Source of the DNA: an uncultured Erysipelotrichaceae bacterium
GTDB taxonomy: Bacteria; Bacillota_I; Bacilli_A; Erysipelotrichales; Erysipelotrichaceae
NCBI GenBank assembly: GCA_944326055.1
Contig: CALVCT010000054.1
Coordinates: 1 to 45,204, forward strand
Length of the DNA: 45,204 bases
Direction: 5' to 3'
The notes below the pieces were generated by a model. The model saw only the letters and a program-made list of their open reading frames with translations. It searched no databases and was not told the origin of the DNA. Both the position numbers and the translations under genes were made by a program. How positions within the stretch are numbered: position 1 is the first letter of the stretch; every line of letters begins with the position of its first letter. Shown here one piece after another: positions 2,390 to 32,874 of the stretch.

Positions 2390-3302
2390 CTTGTTCTTCT
2401 GCTCTTTTTCTATCATTCTCTAGTTGTTTTTTAAGATCTTCTAAACTAGAAAAACGTTTATCATCTCTGATTCGTTCATTTAGATAGATGATCAACTCTG
2501 AATCATATATATCCTTATCAAAATCTAAGATATGGACCTCGTAGGTCAGTCCGTTATTGCTGGCGATCGTCGGATTGTTCCCGATATTGATCATCGCTTT
2601 ATAGCTTTTTTCATCATAGACTGCATATCCGATATAAACACCGTTTTTAGGTATCAAGATCTCTTCATCTAGACGCAGATTGGCTGTTGGAAAGCCTAGA
2701 CGATGTCCATTGCGCTTCCCATGCACAACAAGCCCACGATCAAAATAATCATACCCTAAAAGCGCTCTAGCAAGTTTGATGTCACCTCTTTCGATCGCTA
2801 GACGAACACGTGTCGAAGAGATCTTCTCACCTTCATAGAGAACTTCTGGAACTATATCGACTTCAAAACGATCTTTAGCGAGCTTCTTTAGAGTCTCGAC
2901 ATCGCCTTTTCCCTTATGACCAAAATGAAAATCAAAACCAGAGACCAATCCTTTGAGCGGTAATTTTCCTAAGATCTTTTCAAAAAAGTCTTCAGCACTT
3001 GTCAGACATAAATGTTCTGTGAACTCAAAGACGATGGCTATCTCAATGCCCATGGCTTGAGCTATCTTAAGTCTATCATCGAAACTTTGAATATGACGAT
3101 GGCGTTTTTTTGTGATGATATCTTTTGGGTCAGGATAGAAAGTGATCAGCGCTCGTTTTGTATCTTTCTTGATGGCGATCTCTTTCACTTTTTCGATCAA
3201 AGCTTGATGGCCAAGATGAAGACCATCAAAATAGCCGATACAAGCGACGATATCCTCTGCGACCTTGATATTACTAGACTCCTTAAATCTATAGATCTTC
3301 AT
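2364..3302 (-). CDS. ribF: bifunctional riboflavin kinase / FAD synthetase
   Basis: RibF makes FMN from riboflavin and then FAD from FMN, both with ATP. The N-terminal nucleotidyltransferase domain shows GYFDGLHLGHQ, YPDP and SSTRVRLAIERGD. The C-terminal flavokinase domain shows NGHRLGFPTANL and NIGNNPT. Its length of 312 residues is normal. ATG 3302 overlaps the truB stop codon as TGATG; an upstream in-frame TTG adds only one residue. The order truB-ribF is conserved in many Firmicutes, so this is one operon with truB and the downstream RNA methyltransferase. Confidence 0.95.
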   Translation of the reverse strand: MKIYRFKESSNIKVAEDIVACIGYFDGLHLGHQALIEKVKEIAIKKDTKRALITFYPDPKDIITKKRHRHIQSFDDRLKIAQAMGIEIAIVFEFTEHLCLTSAEDFFEKILGKLPLKGLVSGFDFHFGHKGKGDVETLKKLAKDRFEVDIVPEVLYEGEKISSTRVRLAIERGDIKLARALLGYDYFDRGLVVHGKRNGHRLGFPTANLRLDEEILIPKNGVYIGYAVYDEKSYKAMINIGNNPTIASNNGLTYEVHILDFDKDIYDSELIIYLNERIRDDKRFSSLEDLKKQLENDRKRAEEQDARNDFIL

Positions 3303-4147
3303 CAAAATAACCCCCTAGATGAGCGAAAGATATCTTTATCTTCTCTACGATAGATAGCTAATGCTATCTTATCTTTAGCGATAAGCACTTCATCATTAGG
3401 CGTATCGATCTTTATCTTTTTGCCGTTTCTTATCGCTTTATCGTCCTCAAATTCATATACTTCATAACGACTGGCTAGGACATCATAAAGAGAATGTGTA
3501 TGATATCTTCCTTCCAAGATCGCATCAAGTTTATCGCAATCTTTGACCTCGATACTACCAACACTTATCCGTCTTAAAGATACTAATGTACCGATAAGCC
3601 CAAGATCGTCTAGAATGTCACGGCTCAAAGATCTGATGTATGTGCCAGAGCTGACTTTTACTTTAAAAGAAAAACCATCATCTTTCGCCTCTAGTAGTGT
3701 CATGTCATAGATCGTGACTTTTCTTTTTGGGATCTCTACACTAAGACCTTGCCTTTGATAATCATAAAGTTTCTTTCCTTTGACTTTGATCGCACTTGTC
3801 AAGGGAGGCTCTTGATCATATGTTTTGATATAAGAATCTAATACAGCATTAAGATCTTTTGGATCAGGTACTTTAAAATCTTCCTTTTTGATGATCTTCC
3901 CATCTTTATCTAAAGTATCAGTCTGATAACCATAAACGACTTCGGCAACATATTCTTTATCATCTCCAACTAAGAATTGATTAGCTTTAGTTGCCTTATC
4001 GACTAAGACGATCATTACGCCACTGGCAAGCGGATCGAGCGTTCCTGTGTGCCCTATCGCTTTAGTATTAAATACTTTTCTTAATTTATAACAGACATCA
4101 AAAGATGTGATGCCTTCTGGTTTATCTACATATATAACTTTGCTCAC
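3302..4147 (-). CDS. truB: tRNA pseudouridine-55 synthase
   Basis: TruB isomerises U55 in the T-loop of tRNAs. The catalytic motif GHTGTLDPLASG with its aspartate is near residue 35. The TSAIKVKGKKLYDYQR segment and the SGTYIRSL motif are also typical. From GTG 4147 the protein has 281 residues and begins SKVIYVDKPEG, matching the family N-terminus. An in-frame ATG at 4189 would add 14 unrelated residues and would nearly collide with the divergent gene at 4195. GTG 4147 has no Shine-Dalgarno sequence, but a perfect TATAAT ends 6 bases before it, so the mRNA is probably leaderless. It is the first gene of the truB-ribF-methyltransferase operon. Confidence 0.93.
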   Translation of the reverse strand: MSKVIYVDKPEGITSFDVCYKLRKVFNTKAIGHTGTLDPLASGVMIVLVDKATKANQFLVGDDKEYVAEVVYGYQTDTLDKDGKIIKKEDFKVPDPKDLNAVLDSYIKTYDQEPPLTSAIKVKGKKLYDYQRQGLSVEIPKRKVTIYDMTLLEAKDDGFSFKVKVSSGTYIRSLSRDILDDLGLIGTLVSLRRISVGSIEVKDCDKLDAILEGRYHTHSLYDVLASRYEVYEFEDDKAIRNGKKIKIDTPNDEVLIAKDKIALAIYRREDKDIFRSSRGLF

Positions 4148-4159
4148 TAGAAAATTATA
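4148..4159 (-). promoter_or_regulatory. -10 element for truB, leaderless arrangement
   Basis: TATAAT on the minus strand at 4154-4159 ends 6 bases before GTG 4147. Transcription would therefore start at or within a base or two of the start codon. The -35 region is weak (TATCAT at 17-base spacing). Confidence 0.6.
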
Positions 4160-4180
4160 ACAGATACTTAACTTAGATGA

Positions 4181-4194
4181 TATAATCAAGACCT
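4181..4194 (+). promoter_or_regulatory. -10 element for the TtcA-like gene, leaderless arrangement
   Basis: TATAAT at 4181-4186 ends 8 bases before ATG 4195, and there is no Shine-Dalgarno sequence. The divergent truB promoter lies back to back, within 48 bases between the two start codons. Confidence 0.6.
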
Positions 4195-4941
4195 ATGAGT
4201 GTAAAAAAAGTACTTGCAACTATGCGTAAGGCCGATCAAGACTACGGTCTTATCGAAGATGGAGATTATATTGGAGTAGGTGTCAGTGGTGGTAAGGATT
4301 CTGTCTTGCTTCTTTATCTCTTATATCTTTATCAATTTCTTGCAAAAAATACCTTTGCCAAGAGATTTAAGATCATCGGTATCCATATCGATCTTGGCTT
4401 TGGTGAAGAAGATTTCAGTATCATCGATGATTTTTTCAAAGACTATCCGATCGAGATCCATAGATCTAAATCTTATATTGCAGATATTTTAGAAAGACAT
4501 AAAAAGAAGGAGCGTATCGAATGCAGCCTTTGTTCAACGCTCAAAAAAGGAGCTGTCATCAAAGAGGCAAAGTCGTTAGGTTGTAATAAAGTCGCTTTTG
4601 GCCATCATGCGGATGATGCGATCGAGACATTGTTTCTCAACATGATCTATGGCGGAAAACTTGCGACTTTCGACCCTAAGATGTTTTTGACAGACTCTAA
4701 GATCACCTTTATCCGTCCTTTCATATACGCGTTTGAAAAAGACATCAAAAGAGCGATCAAAGATCTTGATGTGCCAACGATCAAAAGTGGTTGTCCAAAC
4801 GACGGTTTCACTAAAAGACAAGATATCAAAGAGATGCTTCATACCATCTATCATACATATCCTCAAGCTAAAGAGAACTTTTTATTGTCATTGCACAACG
4901 AAAAGATGATCAATCTTTGGCATAAAGAGATGAAAGAGTGA
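4195..4941 (+). CDS. TtcA-family tRNA thiolation ATPase (PP-loop)
   Basis: This 248-residue protein has the N-type ATP pyrophosphatase P-loop SGGKDS near residue 31, a CSLC cysteine pair near residues 106-109, the GHHADDAIETLFLN motif and a later cysteine in SGCPNDG. These are the features of the TtcA/TtuA group, which activates a tRNA base with ATP and inserts sulfur using an iron-sulfur cluster bound by the cysteines. TtcA itself makes 2-thiocytidine at position 32; I infer a similar role but cannot fix the target base. It stands alone on the plus strand, diverges from truB and converges with the next gene, overlapping it by 32 bases at the 3' ends. Confidence 0.82.
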   Translation: MSVKKVLATMRKADQDYGLIEDGDYIGVGVSGGKDSVLLLYLLYLYQFLAKNTFAKRFKIIGIHIDLGFGEEDFSIIDDFFKDYPIEIHRSKSYIADILERHKKKERIECSLCSTLKKGAVIKEAKSLGCNKVAFGHHADDAIETLFLNMIYGGKLATFDPKMFLTDSKITFIRPFIYAFEKDIKRAIKDLDVPTIKSGCPNDGFTKRQDIKEMLHTIYHTYPQAKENFLLSLHNEKMINLWHKEMKE

Positions 4942-8185: not shown

Positions 8186-8212
8186 TTAGCACTTTAATAT
8201 CGAGAGTGCTAA
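8186..8212 (-). promoter_or_regulatory. CIRCE operator (HrcA binding site) upstream of clpB
   Basis: The arms are TTAGCACTT (8186-8194) and GAGTGCTAA (8204-8212) with the canonical 9-base spacer. One base differs from the consensus TTAGCACTC-N9-GAGTGCTAA. It lies immediately upstream of the clpB ribosome-binding site, so HrcA should repress clpB directly. Confidence 0.88.
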
Positions 8213-13362: not shown

Positions 13363-13892
13363 TGTTTGCTCCTTAAATAATATAGTGTACTTATACCATA
13401 ATCTTTCTTTTTATATATCTCTATTGTCTCTTGTTCTTTGATGATCGTTCCTTTTTTGACTTCTAAGATGATGATCGACCTTTTTGAATAAGCTTTTGAA
13501 GCTAGTACATCGCTGATCAATCCATCATGATCAAAATCGTATGGTGGATCCAAAAATATGATATCAAAAGGTCTTTCAACTGTATCAAGGCATGCTCGAT
13601 AGTCTAGATTTTTGATCTCTATATCTCCTTCAAACTGAGCGGCATTCTTTCTTATGACAAGATAAGCATCTTTATCACGATCATTCATCAAGACCCTCCC
13701 AATGCCGCGAGAGATCGCCTCAAGAGCTATAGCTCCACTACCTGCAAATAGATCTAACAAGCTCATTTCTTCATTCAAAAAACCTATTGAAGAAAAAAGT
13801 GCCTCCTTGACCATATCTTTTGTCGGTCTAGTATCGCTTTTTGGTGCTTCTAGTCTACGATTCTTATATCTTCCAGAAATGATCCTCAACAT
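13359..13892 (-). CDS. rsmD: 16S rRNA (guanine966-N2)-methyltransferase RsmD
   Basis: RsmD methylates G966 of 16S rRNA. The family N-terminus RIISGRYKNRRLEAP and the TRPTKDMVKEALFSS segment are present. The SAM-binding region is LLDLFAGSGAIALEAISRG and the catalytic motif is DPPYDF. The 177-residue length is normal. Its start overlaps the stop of the upstream SEDS gene by one base (TAATG), and its stop overlaps coaD by 4 bases, so all three are translated from one transcript. Confidence 0.95.
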   Translation of the reverse strand: MLRIISGRYKNRRLEAPKSDTRPTKDMVKEALFSSIGFLNEEMSLLDLFAGSGAIALEAISRGIGRVLMNDRDKDAYLVIRKNAAQFEGDIEIKNLDYRACLDTVERPFDIIFLDPPYDFDHDGLISDVLASKAYSKRSIIILEVKKGTIIKEQETIEIYKKKDYGISTLYYLRSKQ

Positions 13893-15067
13893 TACTGACC
13901 TTCCCTTTGAAGCTTACGTAATCTGATTATCTCATTTTGAGCTACGCCCAAAGAAATCATCGCTGCCATCGCACTTGAACCTCCGCTACTAATAAGTAGA
14001 AGCGGAACACCAGTAAGTGGAATAAGACCGCTGACGCCTCCGACATTGAGGATAAAGTGTAATAAGAAATATGAGATGACGCCTAAGAAGACCATTCTAG
14101 CTCGTATGTCGGCATACTTGCTCATAGAGTATTTGATCAAACGATAGATAATAAATCCATAAAGCAAGACGATCAATAAAAGACCAATGATGCCAAGTTC
14201 TTCGACGATGACAGGCAAGATAAAATCACTGGATGGATTAGGAAAATTCATATATTTATGAACAGAAGCACCATAACCAACACCAAAAAGTCCTCCAGTC
14301 GCAAAAGCGACTAAAGACATCACCAAATGATAGCCACTTCCATATTGATCACCAAAAGGATCAGCTGCCGATAGGAAACGATCGATACGATAGTCATCGA
14401 TACCTAAAAGATCGATCGTTGCCGTACCAATAGGAGATAAGATGAGAATGCCTAAAGCAACACCTATCACCATCACTAAAAACATGAGTCTTTGCCACTT
14501 CTTGAAGGCTGGATGTTTTGGTATGAGCATCAAAAGATATGCAATACCAAAGAAGATGATGCCAGAACCAGTGTCCTTTTCCCATATCACGATGATGATC
14601 GCATAGATGATCATCGTAAAGAAGACTTCTTTAAATACTTTGAGTGCCTGCTCATCACTTTTGAAATTCTGCGTCAATAATTTAGCTTCAAGCAGAATGA
14701 TAAAAACTTTCGCAAATTCTGAAGGCTGGATCGTAAAAGCACCAAATCTTAACCAAGCATATGCACCACCTATAGATCCAAAAGCTCTAGTGATGATAAG
14801 TACGCCAGCCACGACAAAGATCAATACGCGGTAGATATGTCTAGAAAAGATGAACGGCGAGAGCCATGTTAATGTGACATAAAAGAAAGAACCTATAAAA
14901 AGATAGACGATCTGTCTGATGATGACGCCCGCAATGACAGAGACATCTCCACCAGCATCTCCCATCTCAGCACTAGCGATCATCAAAGTGCCAAAGATCA
15001 TCAGTAATATAAGAGCGATCGTGATACCACGATCTGTGTATAAAGGAAAAAGACGGAATTTTTTCAC
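13892..15067 (-). CDS. FtsW/RodA-family SEDS peptidoglycan polymerase
   Basis: The 391-residue integral membrane protein has about ten predicted transmembrane segments. Family motifs include AWLRFGAFTIQPSEFAKVF, the large extracellular-loop region with GDQYGSGYHLVMS, and the C-terminal GLIPLTGVPLLLISSGGSS. SEDS proteins polymerise lipid II with a partner class B penicillin-binding protein: FtsW in division, RodA in elongation. Sequence alone does not decide which this is. The start is GTG 15067 with no usable Shine-Dalgarno sequence and TAGAAT ending 6 bases upstream, so the mRNA is probably leaderless. It heads the SEDS-rsmD-coaD operon and diverges from def. Confidence 0.93.
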   Translation of the reverse strand: MKKFRLFPLYTDRGITIALILLMIFGTLMIASAEMGDAGGDVSVIAGVIIRQIVYLFIGSFFYVTLTWLSPFIFSRHIYRVLIFVVAGVLIITRAFGSIGGAYAWLRFGAFTIQPSEFAKVFIILLEAKLLTQNFKSDEQALKVFKEVFFTMIIYAIIIVIWEKDTGSGIIFFGIAYLLMLIPKHPAFKKWQRLMFLVMVIGVALGILILSPIGTATIDLLGIDDYRIDRFLSAADPFGDQYGSGYHLVMSLVAFATGGLFGVGYGASVHKYMNFPNPSSDFILPVIVEELGIIGLLLIVLLYGFIIYRLIKYSMSKYADIRARMVFLGVISYFLLHFILNVGGVSGLIPLTGVPLLLISSGGSSAMAAMISLGVAQNEIIRLRKLQREGQ

Positions 15068-15085: not shown

Positions 15086-15120
15086 TTGAACATTAGACTA
15101 AAATACACTATAATGTGCTC
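15086..15120 (+). promoter_or_regulatory. promoter of def, leaderless arrangement
   Basis: -35 TTGAAC (15086-15091) and -10 TATAAT (15109-15114) have perfect 17-base spacing. The -10 ends 6 bases before ATG 15121, so transcription should begin at the start codon. No Shine-Dalgarno sequence is present. Confidence 0.75.
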
Positions 15121-15681
15121 ATGAAGATCAACAATGAGACTATTATCAAAGATGATGATCCGATGCTGCGTGAACGTTCATTGGATGTAAAACTGCCTTT
15201 AAGTGCGCAAGATAAGAGCTTGCTACAAGATCTATATGATTATGTCGATCGTTCGACCGACCCTGAAATAGCTGAAAAAGAAGATCTCCAGGCTGCTGTC
15301 GGGATTTCTGCGATCCAAGTGGGTATCAAGAAGAAGATGTGTGCGATCATTCTCAAAGATAAAGATGGGAAGATCGTCCACGGTTACGCTTTAGCCAACC
15401 CAAAGATCATCAAAGAATCAGTTGAAGAAGCTTATCTTGAATCGGGTGAGGGCTGTCTCAGTGTCCCTGAAGCTCATGAAGGTTATGTATATCGTCATCG
15501 TCGCATAACGGTCAGAGGATATGATCTACTTCGCGAACAAGAAGTAAAAATAGAAGCTAAAGATTATCTAGCTATCGTCTTTCAGCACGAACTAGATCAT
15601 TTTAAAGGCATCCTTTACTATGACCATATCAATAAAGAGCAACCATTTATGAAAAAAGATGGTGCTCATTGCATCGAATAG
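15121..15681 (+). CDS. def: peptide deformylase
   Basis: Def removes the formyl group from the N-terminal methionine of new proteins, using a bound metal. All three motifs are visible: GISAIQVG (motif 1, GxGxAAxQ type but with serine and isoleucine), EGCLSVPE with the metal-binding cysteine, and QHELDHFKG with two histidines and the catalytic glutamate. Family length is normal at 186 residues from ATG 15121. An in-frame GTG at 15115 lies between the -10 element and the ATG and would not be transcribed. It leads the def-rnj-lemA-DUF3137 operon. Confidence 0.96.
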   Translation: MKINNETIIKDDDPMLRERSLDVKLPLSAQDKSLLQDLYDYVDRSTDPEIAEKEDLQAAVGISAIQVGIKKKMCAIILKDKDGKIVHGYALANPKIIKESVEEAYLESGEGCLSVPEAHEGYVYRHRRITVRGYDLLREQEVKIEAKDYLAIVFQHELDHFKGILYYDHINKEQPFMKKDGAHCIE

Positions 15682-27205: not shown

Positions 27206-28240
27206 TTATTCCTCCACTACGATATCATCAAGGCTGCCATCTTGGACTTGAGTTGCTTCCATCAATACATCTGTCGTCAAGTTCTCTAAGACATTGAGGT
27301 TTTCATACATCAAAGAAAGATAGTCCTTATTGGCACCGATCTGCGATGGCGTTAGAGAGCTGAGATTAGAAAGATTGATACGTGTAAGACCCAATTCGCT
27401 CTCTAATGAATTGAAAAGCTCGATCATCTCATCTGTCATATTTGGTTCATAGGCGATATATTCTACTTCATCAGCTATGATACGCTCTTTTATAGCCGCT
27501 AGTTGCTCATCTGTTGGAAGAGCTCCATACTTTGAAAGACAGACAGGATAGATCTGAAAACCATAAGCTTTTTGCCAGTTACCGAGATTAGGTGTCATCG
27601 TGACAAAACGAATGGTTTGGTTATTGTCCTTGAGTCTTTGAGCAAGATTTTGATAAGCTGCGTCAAGAGAGATCAGGTCTTCTTTCAGTGCTTCATAATT
27701 TTCAGAAAAAACACTCGATGCTTCAACATAATTGCTCGCTAGCGTATTATAGATACGTTCAGCCATCGACAACATTCCTATCGGATCGGTCCAAAGCGCT
27801 AGATCGTTCTCATTAGTATCTACGGTGTCAAATGCACTACTATTGTAATATGGTGATTCGATGTAAGTTTCATTACCATCGACATATACGAGTGTATATC
27901 TTTGAAAGCGATATATCGCGTTGAGCTCAGACAAGTCGATGATCGTCGTTCCTGAATTCTCGATCTCATCTTCATAGATCGTTAGATAAGGCTCTAGATC
28001 GCCGATATGGAAAAAGTATAATGAATCTTTTAAAAGTTCGGCATAATCATCTCTAATATTAGCGACCTGTACGAGCTCATTCTCCTGGATCGAAACGGCC
28101 TCGATACGATCACCAGCAATCTTTTCGATGAGATATCCAACAGGATAAACAGAATATGTGACGATCGATCTAACATTTTGACAGCCAACTAATGTCAGAT
28201 TCAAAGATAAAATAACTAATAGGATCAAAATCTTTTTCAT
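27206..28240 (-). CDS. ZnuA/TroA-like metal ABC transporter substrate-binding lipoprotein homologue with lost ligands
   Basis: The 344-residue protein has a signal peptide with lipobox LVGC (lipidated Cys20) and the fold pattern of cluster A-I metal-binding proteins. Typical members bind zinc or manganese with three histidines and an acidic residue. Here only H78 (in FFHIGDLEPY) is retained. ALWTDP at about 148-153 lacks the usual histidine, and TMTPNLGNW near 214-221 has threonine where the family has histidine. No permease or ATPase gene is adjacent; the gene lies 1 base before polA and 7 bases after trmB. It may bind something other than a metal ion, or act as a chaperone-like lipoprotein. 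The family call is firm, the substrate is not known. Confidence 0.78.
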   Translation of the reverse strand: MKKILILLVILSLNLTLVGCQNVRSIVTYSVYPVGYLIEKIAGDRIEAVSIQENELVQVANIRDDYAELLKDSLYFFHIGDLEPYLTIYEDEIENSGTTIIDLSELNAIYRFQRYTLVYVDGNETYIESPYYNSSAFDTVDTNENDLALWTDPIGMLSMAERIYNTLASNYVEASSVFSENYEALKEDLISLDAAYQNLAQRLKDNNQTIRFVTMTPNLGNWQKAYGFQIYPVCLSKYGALPTDEQLAAIKERIIADEVEYIAYEPNMTDEMIELFNSLESELGLTRINLSNLSSLTPSQIGANKDYLSLMYENLNVLENLTTDVLMEATQVQDGSLDDIVVEE

Positions 28241-31948: not shown

Positions 31949-32410
31949 CTATATAGTTCTTATCAGCTCATCTAATTTTTCTAAGAACTTATCTCGATTA
32001 CTTATAAAAGGGCGCGGTGTGAAATTTTTGAGTTCCTTTATCTTCTCATTGATATCATCACCATCATTCAAGACCAAGATATGCCCTTCTTCTTTAAACT
32101 TCTTTGCGATCTCTAATTGGTGATCATTTGTATGCTCAGAGTATTTGGCAAGTCTTGGCACCGCTAAGATCTTCTTGCCTCTTTTAAGAGCTTGGATGAT
32201 CGATCCAACACCTGCGTGTGTGATGATGATATCGGCTTTATCAAGCATCATTTCAAAAGCCACTTCGTCTAGATAGTCTTTATGAGCTAATGTATCGGGA
32301 CAAGCAGTATAACCAGATTGTACGAAGATCTCTTCATCTTTTATCTTAGACAATTCCAAGATCAATCGATCAAAAGCTTTATCTTGTGTACCTAAAGTAA
32401 CAAATATCAA
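31949..32410 (-). CDS. PssE/Alg13-like glycosyltransferase catalytic subunit
   Basis: The protein matches the C-terminal half of family 28 glycosyltransferases, with IFVTLGTQDKAFDRLI at the start and ITHAGVGSIIQALKRGKKIL as the nucleotide-sugar-binding region. In two-part enzymes (Alg13 in yeast, PssE/CpsG in bacteria) this subunit supplies catalysis. The start TTG 32410 is preferred: it gives the family N-terminus, overlaps the partner gene by 4 bases, and has GGGGGTG 6 bases upstream. A TTG at 32425 is in frame. The partner gene directly upstream encodes the membrane subunit. No other polysaccharide genes are nearby, so the acceptor is unknown. Confidence 0.85.
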   Translation of the reverse strand: MIFVTLGTQDKAFDRLILELSKIKDEEIFVQSGYTACPDTLAHKDYLDEVAFEMMLDKADIIITHAGVGSIIQALKRGKKILAVPRLAKYSEHTNDHQLEIAKKFKEEGHILVLNDGDDINEKIKELKNFTPRPFISNRDKFLEKLDELIRTI

Positions 32411-32874
32411 AATAAACACCCCCAATATTCTGCTTTAGGGTATATCTCTAAAAGCTCAGGCCATTGGACGATAAACTTGTCCGCGATCTTATAGACCAGT
32501 TTTCCAGCCATCGTCGGTGTCGTGATATTAGCGAAAGTCTCAATAAAAATGACTTTCTTTTTAAACAGATGAGCGATATAACACATAGGAACAGCGGTAT
32601 GCGTGCCTGTGGTGATGATGATGTCTGGCCTTTTTTTCAAGAAGATATATAGCGAATATAAGATATTGAACATAAAGATGAAGAGATAGCGAAAAAGATG
32701 ATCCTTAGTGCCATAAGCCAATAGATAGACATCATCATATCGCTCTTTGAGATAAAGTGTCGTCTTCGTCTTTTCACTTACTAAAGTTGCATCATACTTT
32801 GAGATCAAAGGTTCAAGCTGTAATAACTCTGTAAGATGACCGCCGCCACTTGCAATAAAAAGTACTTTCTTCAT
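32407..32874 (-). CDS. PssD/Alg14-like glycosyltransferase membrane subunit
   Basis: The 155-residue protein starts KKVLFIASGGGHLTELLQL, the glycine-rich segment typical of Alg14/PssD/CpsF proteins. A hydrophobic region at about residues 63-80 could anchor it to the membrane. DIIITTGTHTAVPMCYIAHLF follows. This subunit recruits the catalytic PssE-like partner, encoded with a 4-base overlap. The ATG has no Shine-Dalgarno sequence but a full promoter whose -10 ends 8 bases upstream, so the mRNA is probably leaderless. The sugar and acceptor cannot be read from sequence. Confidence 0.85.
   Translation of the reverse strand: MKKVLFIASGGGHLTELLQLEPLISKYDATLVSEKTKTTLYLKERYDDVYLLAYGTKDHLFRYLFIFMFNILYSLYIFLKKRPDIIITTGTHTAVPMCYIAHLFKKKVIFIETFANITTPTMAGKLVYKIADKFIVQWPELLEIYPKAEYWGCLF

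Follow-up and report, generated by a model that had tools for sequence, protein, structure and literature searches.

Predicted leaderless truB and TtcA-like mRNAs from back-to-back extended -10 promoters in an Erysipelotrichaceae genome

Background

How is translation initiated at two divergent genes that lack a Shine-Dalgarno (SD) sequence and carry a TATAAT box just upstream of each start codon? This question is raised by truB and a TtcA-like gene in an uncultured Erysipelotrichaceae bacterium. Both genes lie in a stretch of 45,204 nucleotides, contig 54 of the assembly, which is referred to as the window. The original prediction, made from the window alone, was that both genes are transcribed from the start codon itself and that the genome uses two initiation modes, in keeping with a kinship to Mycoplasma. 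This kinship had to be given up, as the organism belongs to the Erysipelotrichaceae and the closest relatives that bear a name are metagenome assemblies of the same family, some of them from ruminant gut.

Data and methods

The 1.38 Mb assembly, probably a metagenome bin, is 98.5% complete with 39% GC, and 1,378,841 bases (99.8%) were analysed. For the gene-anchored test, 1299 starts were picked solely from the coding score and the start codon, with no use of upstream information. SD sequences were scored by SD cores only, the 4-mer TGAT being unusable because TGATATAAT contains it. The divergent locus was compared in nine compact loci of the Erysipelotrichaceae, namely the window, G002, G004, G006, G008, G010 and loci L115, L117 and L118. 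TATAATN{6,7}ATG and TATAATN{12,13}ATG were counted in 395 genomes of the class, and a tally was made over seven families (189 genomes).

Results

The start codons of truB (GTG 4147, minus strand) and the TtcA-like gene (ATG 4195, plus strand) are separated by 47 bases, and the intergenic sequence plus both start codons reads CACTAGAAAATTATAACAGATACTTAACTTAGATGATATAATCAAGACCTATG. Upstream of truB the minus strand reads CTGTTATAAT-TTTCTA-GTG, with TATAAT at 4159-4154 and a gap of 6 bases to GTG; upstream of the TtcA-like gene the plus strand reads GATGATATAAT-CAAGACCT-ATG, with TATAAT at 4181-4186 and a gap of 8 bases to ATG. The perfect hexamers at 6 and 8 bases had been noted originally and were found as described, and inspection of the upstream sequence likewise bore out that neither GTG 4147 nor ATG 4195 has an SD. 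A new feature is that both hexamers are preceded by TGn and are extended -10 elements (TGnTATAAT). The genes originally named as a contrast are indeed SD-led: dnaK has aggagg, pfkA cggagg, yebC aaggagg, and clpB has GGAGG just 5' of ATG 8174. A CIRCE-like element, TTAGCACTC-N9-AAGTGCTAA (8186-8212, minus strand), lies directly 5' of clpB and suggests that clpB may be controlled by HrcA.

The TruB protein scored 210.3 bits with the equivalog model TIGR00431, above the cut-off of 151.45. The best NCBIfam model for the divergent protein was the TtcA equivalog NF007972, whose cut-off of 272 was missed at 172.7 bits, and the gene was therefore filed only as a TtcA-like PP-loop ATPase. In a consensus scan for -35 elements, two candidate sites were found against 0.7 expected, and no site was scored for truB. 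The features are collected in Table 1.

Table 1 Features of the truB/TtcA-like locus and other genes of the window predicted to be leaderless
Feature	Coordinates	Strand	Basis or remark
truB, tRNA pseudouridine(55) synthase, GTG start 4147	3302..4147	-	TIGR00431 and PF01509
truB extended -10 TGTTATAAT, 6 bases 5' of GTG	4154..4162	-	Sequence; orthologue conservation
truB predicted transcription start, first base of GTG	4147	-	6-base spacer; mapped spacers of 5-7 nt in M. gallisepticum (PMC4245973)
TtcA-like PP-loop ATPase (tRNA 2-thiocytidine synthetase family)	4195..4941	+	PF01171 over cut-off
TtcA-like extended -10 TGATATAAT, 8 bases 5' of ATG	4178..4186	+	Sequence; orthologue conservation
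TtcA-like predicted transcription start, A of ATG (alternatives 4193-4194)	4195	+	Prediction; pyrimidines at spacers 6 and 7
Weak candidate -35 of TtcA-like promoter (ATAACA, spacer 18), overlapping truB -10	4157..4162	+	Consensus match only
FtsW/RodA-like gene, probably leaderless	13892..15067	-	TGATAGAAT, 6 bases before GTG
def (peptide deformylase), predicted leaderless	15121..15681	+	TATAAT 15109-15114, 6 bases before ATG
ZnuA-like zinc-binding lipoprotein	27206..28240	-	TATAAT 6 bases before ATG, no SD
PssD-like glycosyltransferase subunit	32407..32874	-	TATAAT 8 bases before ATG, no SD

The near -10 boxes could be chance AT-rich hexamers, the genes being leadered but SD-less and their true promoters lying upstream inside the neighbour gene. 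The 39% GC of the genome favours this explanation, and so do more than 400 SD-less starts without a near -10 box, which indicate that SD-less leadered or translationally coupled starts exist. However, exact TATAAT at 6-8 bases was found before 60 of the 484 SD-less genes, whereas 200 shuffles gave a mean of 1.65 and a maximum of 7. The spacing is also exact: among the 1299 starts, TATAAT lay 6, 7, 8 and 9 bases upstream of 41, 19, 8 and 6 genes, respectively, and upstream of 0-3 genes at each other spacing below 19 bases (about 1 at most of them), and wrong starts from the simple gene caller would blur this peak rather than create it. When the distance was anchored on the motif, the counts for ATG starts of ORFs of at least 80 aa were 57 (6 bases) and 24 (7 bases), other distances giving about 5, and no comparable 6-7-base peak appeared in the histogram for scrambled hexamers. 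Pattern counts gave 30 matches for TGNTATAATN{5,9}ATG, 9 for N{10,14} and 2 for the reversed control. At the locus itself the gap is only 47 bp, so that any promoter further upstream would have to lie within the opposite gene's coding sequence.

Comparison of orthologues also speaks against chance. In the nine compact loci, where the gap between truB and the TtcA-like gene is 34-63 bp, the truB-side TATAAT is found 6-10 bases before the start in 9/9 and the TtcA-side -10 at 6-8 bases in 7/9, a clear box being missing in the other two. The boxes are kept across the nine genomes while the adjacent bases vary. Taken as a whole, the chance explanation is improbable.

The spacing peak had been proposed as a genome-wide check, and a sharp peak before SD-less starts was indeed found and was absent before SD-bearing ones; of the proposed 6-8 bases, 6-7 form the peak and 8 is a shoulder (8 genes over a background of about 1). 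With near-consensus boxes the near peak was again confined to SD-less genes, and the -10 boxes of SD genes lie 20-28 bases upstream, a distance in keeping with short leaders. An SD core is present on 761 of all 1299 genes, and it precedes 1 of the 68 genes with TATAAT at 6-8 bases versus 760 of the 1231 others (p = 7e-26), an exclusion that is partly mechanical since there is room for only one of the two motifs. The 16S tail with the anti-SD was not found in the assembly; the SD peak at 4-9 bases indicates that the anti-SD is functional. Two initiation modes in one genome, as originally proposed, are thus well supported at the level of sequence by the spacing peak, the SD contrast and orthologue conservation.

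When one mismatch in the -10 was allowed, 121 candidates were obtained over a background of about 22. Leaderless genes therefore probably number about 100 of some 1300, i.e. about 8% of genes and 18% of the SD-less ones, an estimate that misses genes with weak -10 boxes. Among the 68 genes, only 20 have the upstream TG of an extended -10, and nine start with GTG.

The annotated start codons of truB and the TtcA-like gene appear credible. If they were misassigned, the -10 boxes would drive leadered mRNAs with true starts downstream, and the TtcA-like gene does offer an in-frame ATG at codon 10. This ATG lacks an SD, however, and in truB no internal start occurs ahead of the conserved KPEG motif. 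TruB has the N-terminus VSKVIYVDKPEG, and its orthologues start from the same residue; orthologues of the TtcA-like protein retain the N-terminus MSVKKVL..RKAD, and in outgroups the SD-led orthologues have their starts in the equivalent place. Misassignment is less probable still than chance hexamers. One bidirectional promoter built around a symmetric -10 common to both genes, the least probable reading of all, would suit the divergent orientation and overlapping promoter elements but was rejected on spacing, since the divergent starts of such E. coli promoters lie 10, 18 or 23 bp apart (Warman et al., PMC12825309), a range of 10-23 bp around one -10, and here two separate TATAAT boxes 21 bp apart correspond to predicted starts 48 bp apart.

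The preferred reading, with a probability of roughly 0.87, is that the 47-bp region holds two back-to-back extended -10 promoters of the housekeeping sigma type and that both mRNAs would be leaderless, among about 100 such genes beside an SD-led majority. Each promoter would start transcription on, or within 1-2 bases of, the adjacent start codon, from which leaderless truB and TtcA-like mRNAs would follow. At truB the -10 ends 6 bases upstream, which would place +1 on the G of GTG. At the TtcA-like gene pyrimidines occupy spacers 6 and 7, and ATG begins with its A at spacer 8, so transcription would start at this A or give a leader of 1-2 bases. The original claim of transcription from the start codon is supported on both sides, with the reservation for the TtcA-like gene that its 8-base spacing, one longer than the genome-wide peak, counts against a strictly leaderless mRNA. 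The peak itself matches mapped spacers, which are 6 nt, rarely 5 or 7, in M. gallisepticum (PMC4245973) and 6-7 at the transcription starts of Mesoplasma florum (PMC7745072).

The ribosome would then engage the 5'-terminal GUG or AUG directly, without an SD, by the known leaderless route. This route uses an fMet-tRNA-charged 70S ribosome or 30S-IF2. A GTG start is less favoured in E. coli leaderless translation, which counts against the reading for truB, although GTG starts do occur among the 68 candidates. No match to full-length ribosomal protein S1 (bS1) was found in the genome, only single S1-domain hits in three proteins; this fits leaderless translation but does not prove it. With the -10 boxes only 21 bp apart and the weak plus-strand -35 overlapping the truB -10, occupation by two polymerases together looks impossible.

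Divergent pairing is not a special feature of these genes, as 7 pairs were seen in the genome versus 6.7 expected from independent leaderless genes. Another divergent pair of the window that is probably leaderless consists of the FtsW/RodA-like gene (15067) and def (15121), 53 bp apart. The 68 genes include truB, the TtcA-like gene, miaA, tsaC, fmt, def, an RlmN-type radical SAM gene, dnaX, dnaE, a PcrA-type helicase, RarA-like, RapZ, recU, an ArsR regulator, an Mn-dependent pyrophosphatase and others. By inspection they lean to RNA processing and replication, where a bias to information processing was reported by Zheng et al. Intriguingly, both genes for the addition and removal of the formyl group in the formyl-methionine cycle, fmt (L073:12354-13301) and def, are predicted to be leaderless.

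The divergent order of truB and the TtcA-like gene is common across Erysipelotrichales. In the more distant members G014, G015, G020 and G029 the same order is found, but both genes have SDs and the gap is 71-170 bp. A near -10 precedes tsaC by exactly 6 bases in G017 and in each of the eight genus genomes read, while nearly all others are SD-led; before miaA, it is placed at 6-7 bases in G010 and in every one of the eight genus members read, and most others are SD-led. In a tsaC and miaA tree, built on two short proteins and with a few starts without a clear SD counted as not leaderless, the genus groups with G010 in a supported clade, which is nested among lineages that are not leaderless, and G017 stands apart. 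Given this nesting, leaderlessness would by parsimony be the derived condition, and tsaC would have acquired it at least twice. The leaderless mode seems to have arisen in the clade, its relatives using normal SD leaders. The tsaC of G017 (L197) has the near -10 TAAAAT at 6 bases, apparently an independent gain in a separate lineage, and its miaA retains an SD.

Across the class, the near-spacing excess is patchy, being found in part of Erysipelotrichaceae, in family f8 and in family f16, and no excess was seen in families f2, f5, f11 and f13 of the 189-genome tally. The present genome, with 126 versus 54 matches, ranks fifth in this tally. No family of the class has a stronger leaderless signature than f8 (G253, G283, G307), with counts such as 39 versus 1 and 36 versus 2. 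In a gene-level test on 80-100 kb of each genome, an SD-less peak at 6-7 bases was found in G008, in G253 (f8, 61% GC) and in G388 (f16), with little in G014 and none in G020. The G388 peak became clearer with TGA read as Trp, so G388 is probably a Mycoplasma.

Discussion

A tentative extension, to which slightly less than even odds are given, is that leaderlessness was gained gene by gene in one Erysipelotrichaceae clade from SD-led ancestors, while divergent intergenic regions shrank, and that it was concentrated on tRNA-modification, formyl-methionine and replication genes. Such a gain would contradict the published view of leaderless genes as mainly declining in bacterial evolution, and changes in the state of the ribosome or of IF2/IF3 could then affect such genes together. 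It is directly testable, since leadered and leaderless orthologues occur in close relatives. In such genomes, up to about one tenth of starts may be misplaced by gene callers relying on an SD, and leaderless mRNAs react differently to initiation inhibitors, e.g. kasugamycin.

Nothing relevant on leaderless genes in Erysipelotrichaceae was found in the literature; an earlier computational notice is possible, and the GeneMarkS-2 study reportedly classed 5,007 genomes by leaderless use. The kind of gene is known and the Erysipelotrichaceae lineage appears to be new. A 2024 survey placed Erysipelotrichia among SD users, at 74% (PMC10783764). Within Firmicutes, leaderless genes were reported mainly from Lactobacillales and Mycoplasma (Zheng et al. 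2011, PMC3160421), and a gut Erysipelotrichaceae clade would join these few groups while mostly using SDs. According to the same study, leaderless genes tend to become fewer as bacteria evolve; in contrast, a local gain is suggested by the present pattern and is its most interesting part.

The truB/TtcA-like pair agrees with the "TA-led" class (Zheng et al. 2011), having a -10-like hexamer some 12 bp upstream of the start codon, no SD and a signal positionally enriched genome-wide above chance. Leaderless genes of Mycoplasma likewise have TATAAT with the start codon 6-7 bases downstream and no SD, alongside leadered genes. They make up 16% in M. pneumoniae (PMC10568206), where an SD is found on about 8% of genes, whereas most genes have one here. 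Those of Lactococcus and Streptococcus (Zheng et al. 2011) likewise combine TATAAT with an SD-dominated Firmicutes genome, but they belong to a different order and often have the upstream TG, a minority feature here. Bidirectional promoters of E. coli share the divergent transcription from a short stretch, but the two genes studied here would each be served by a -10 box of its own.
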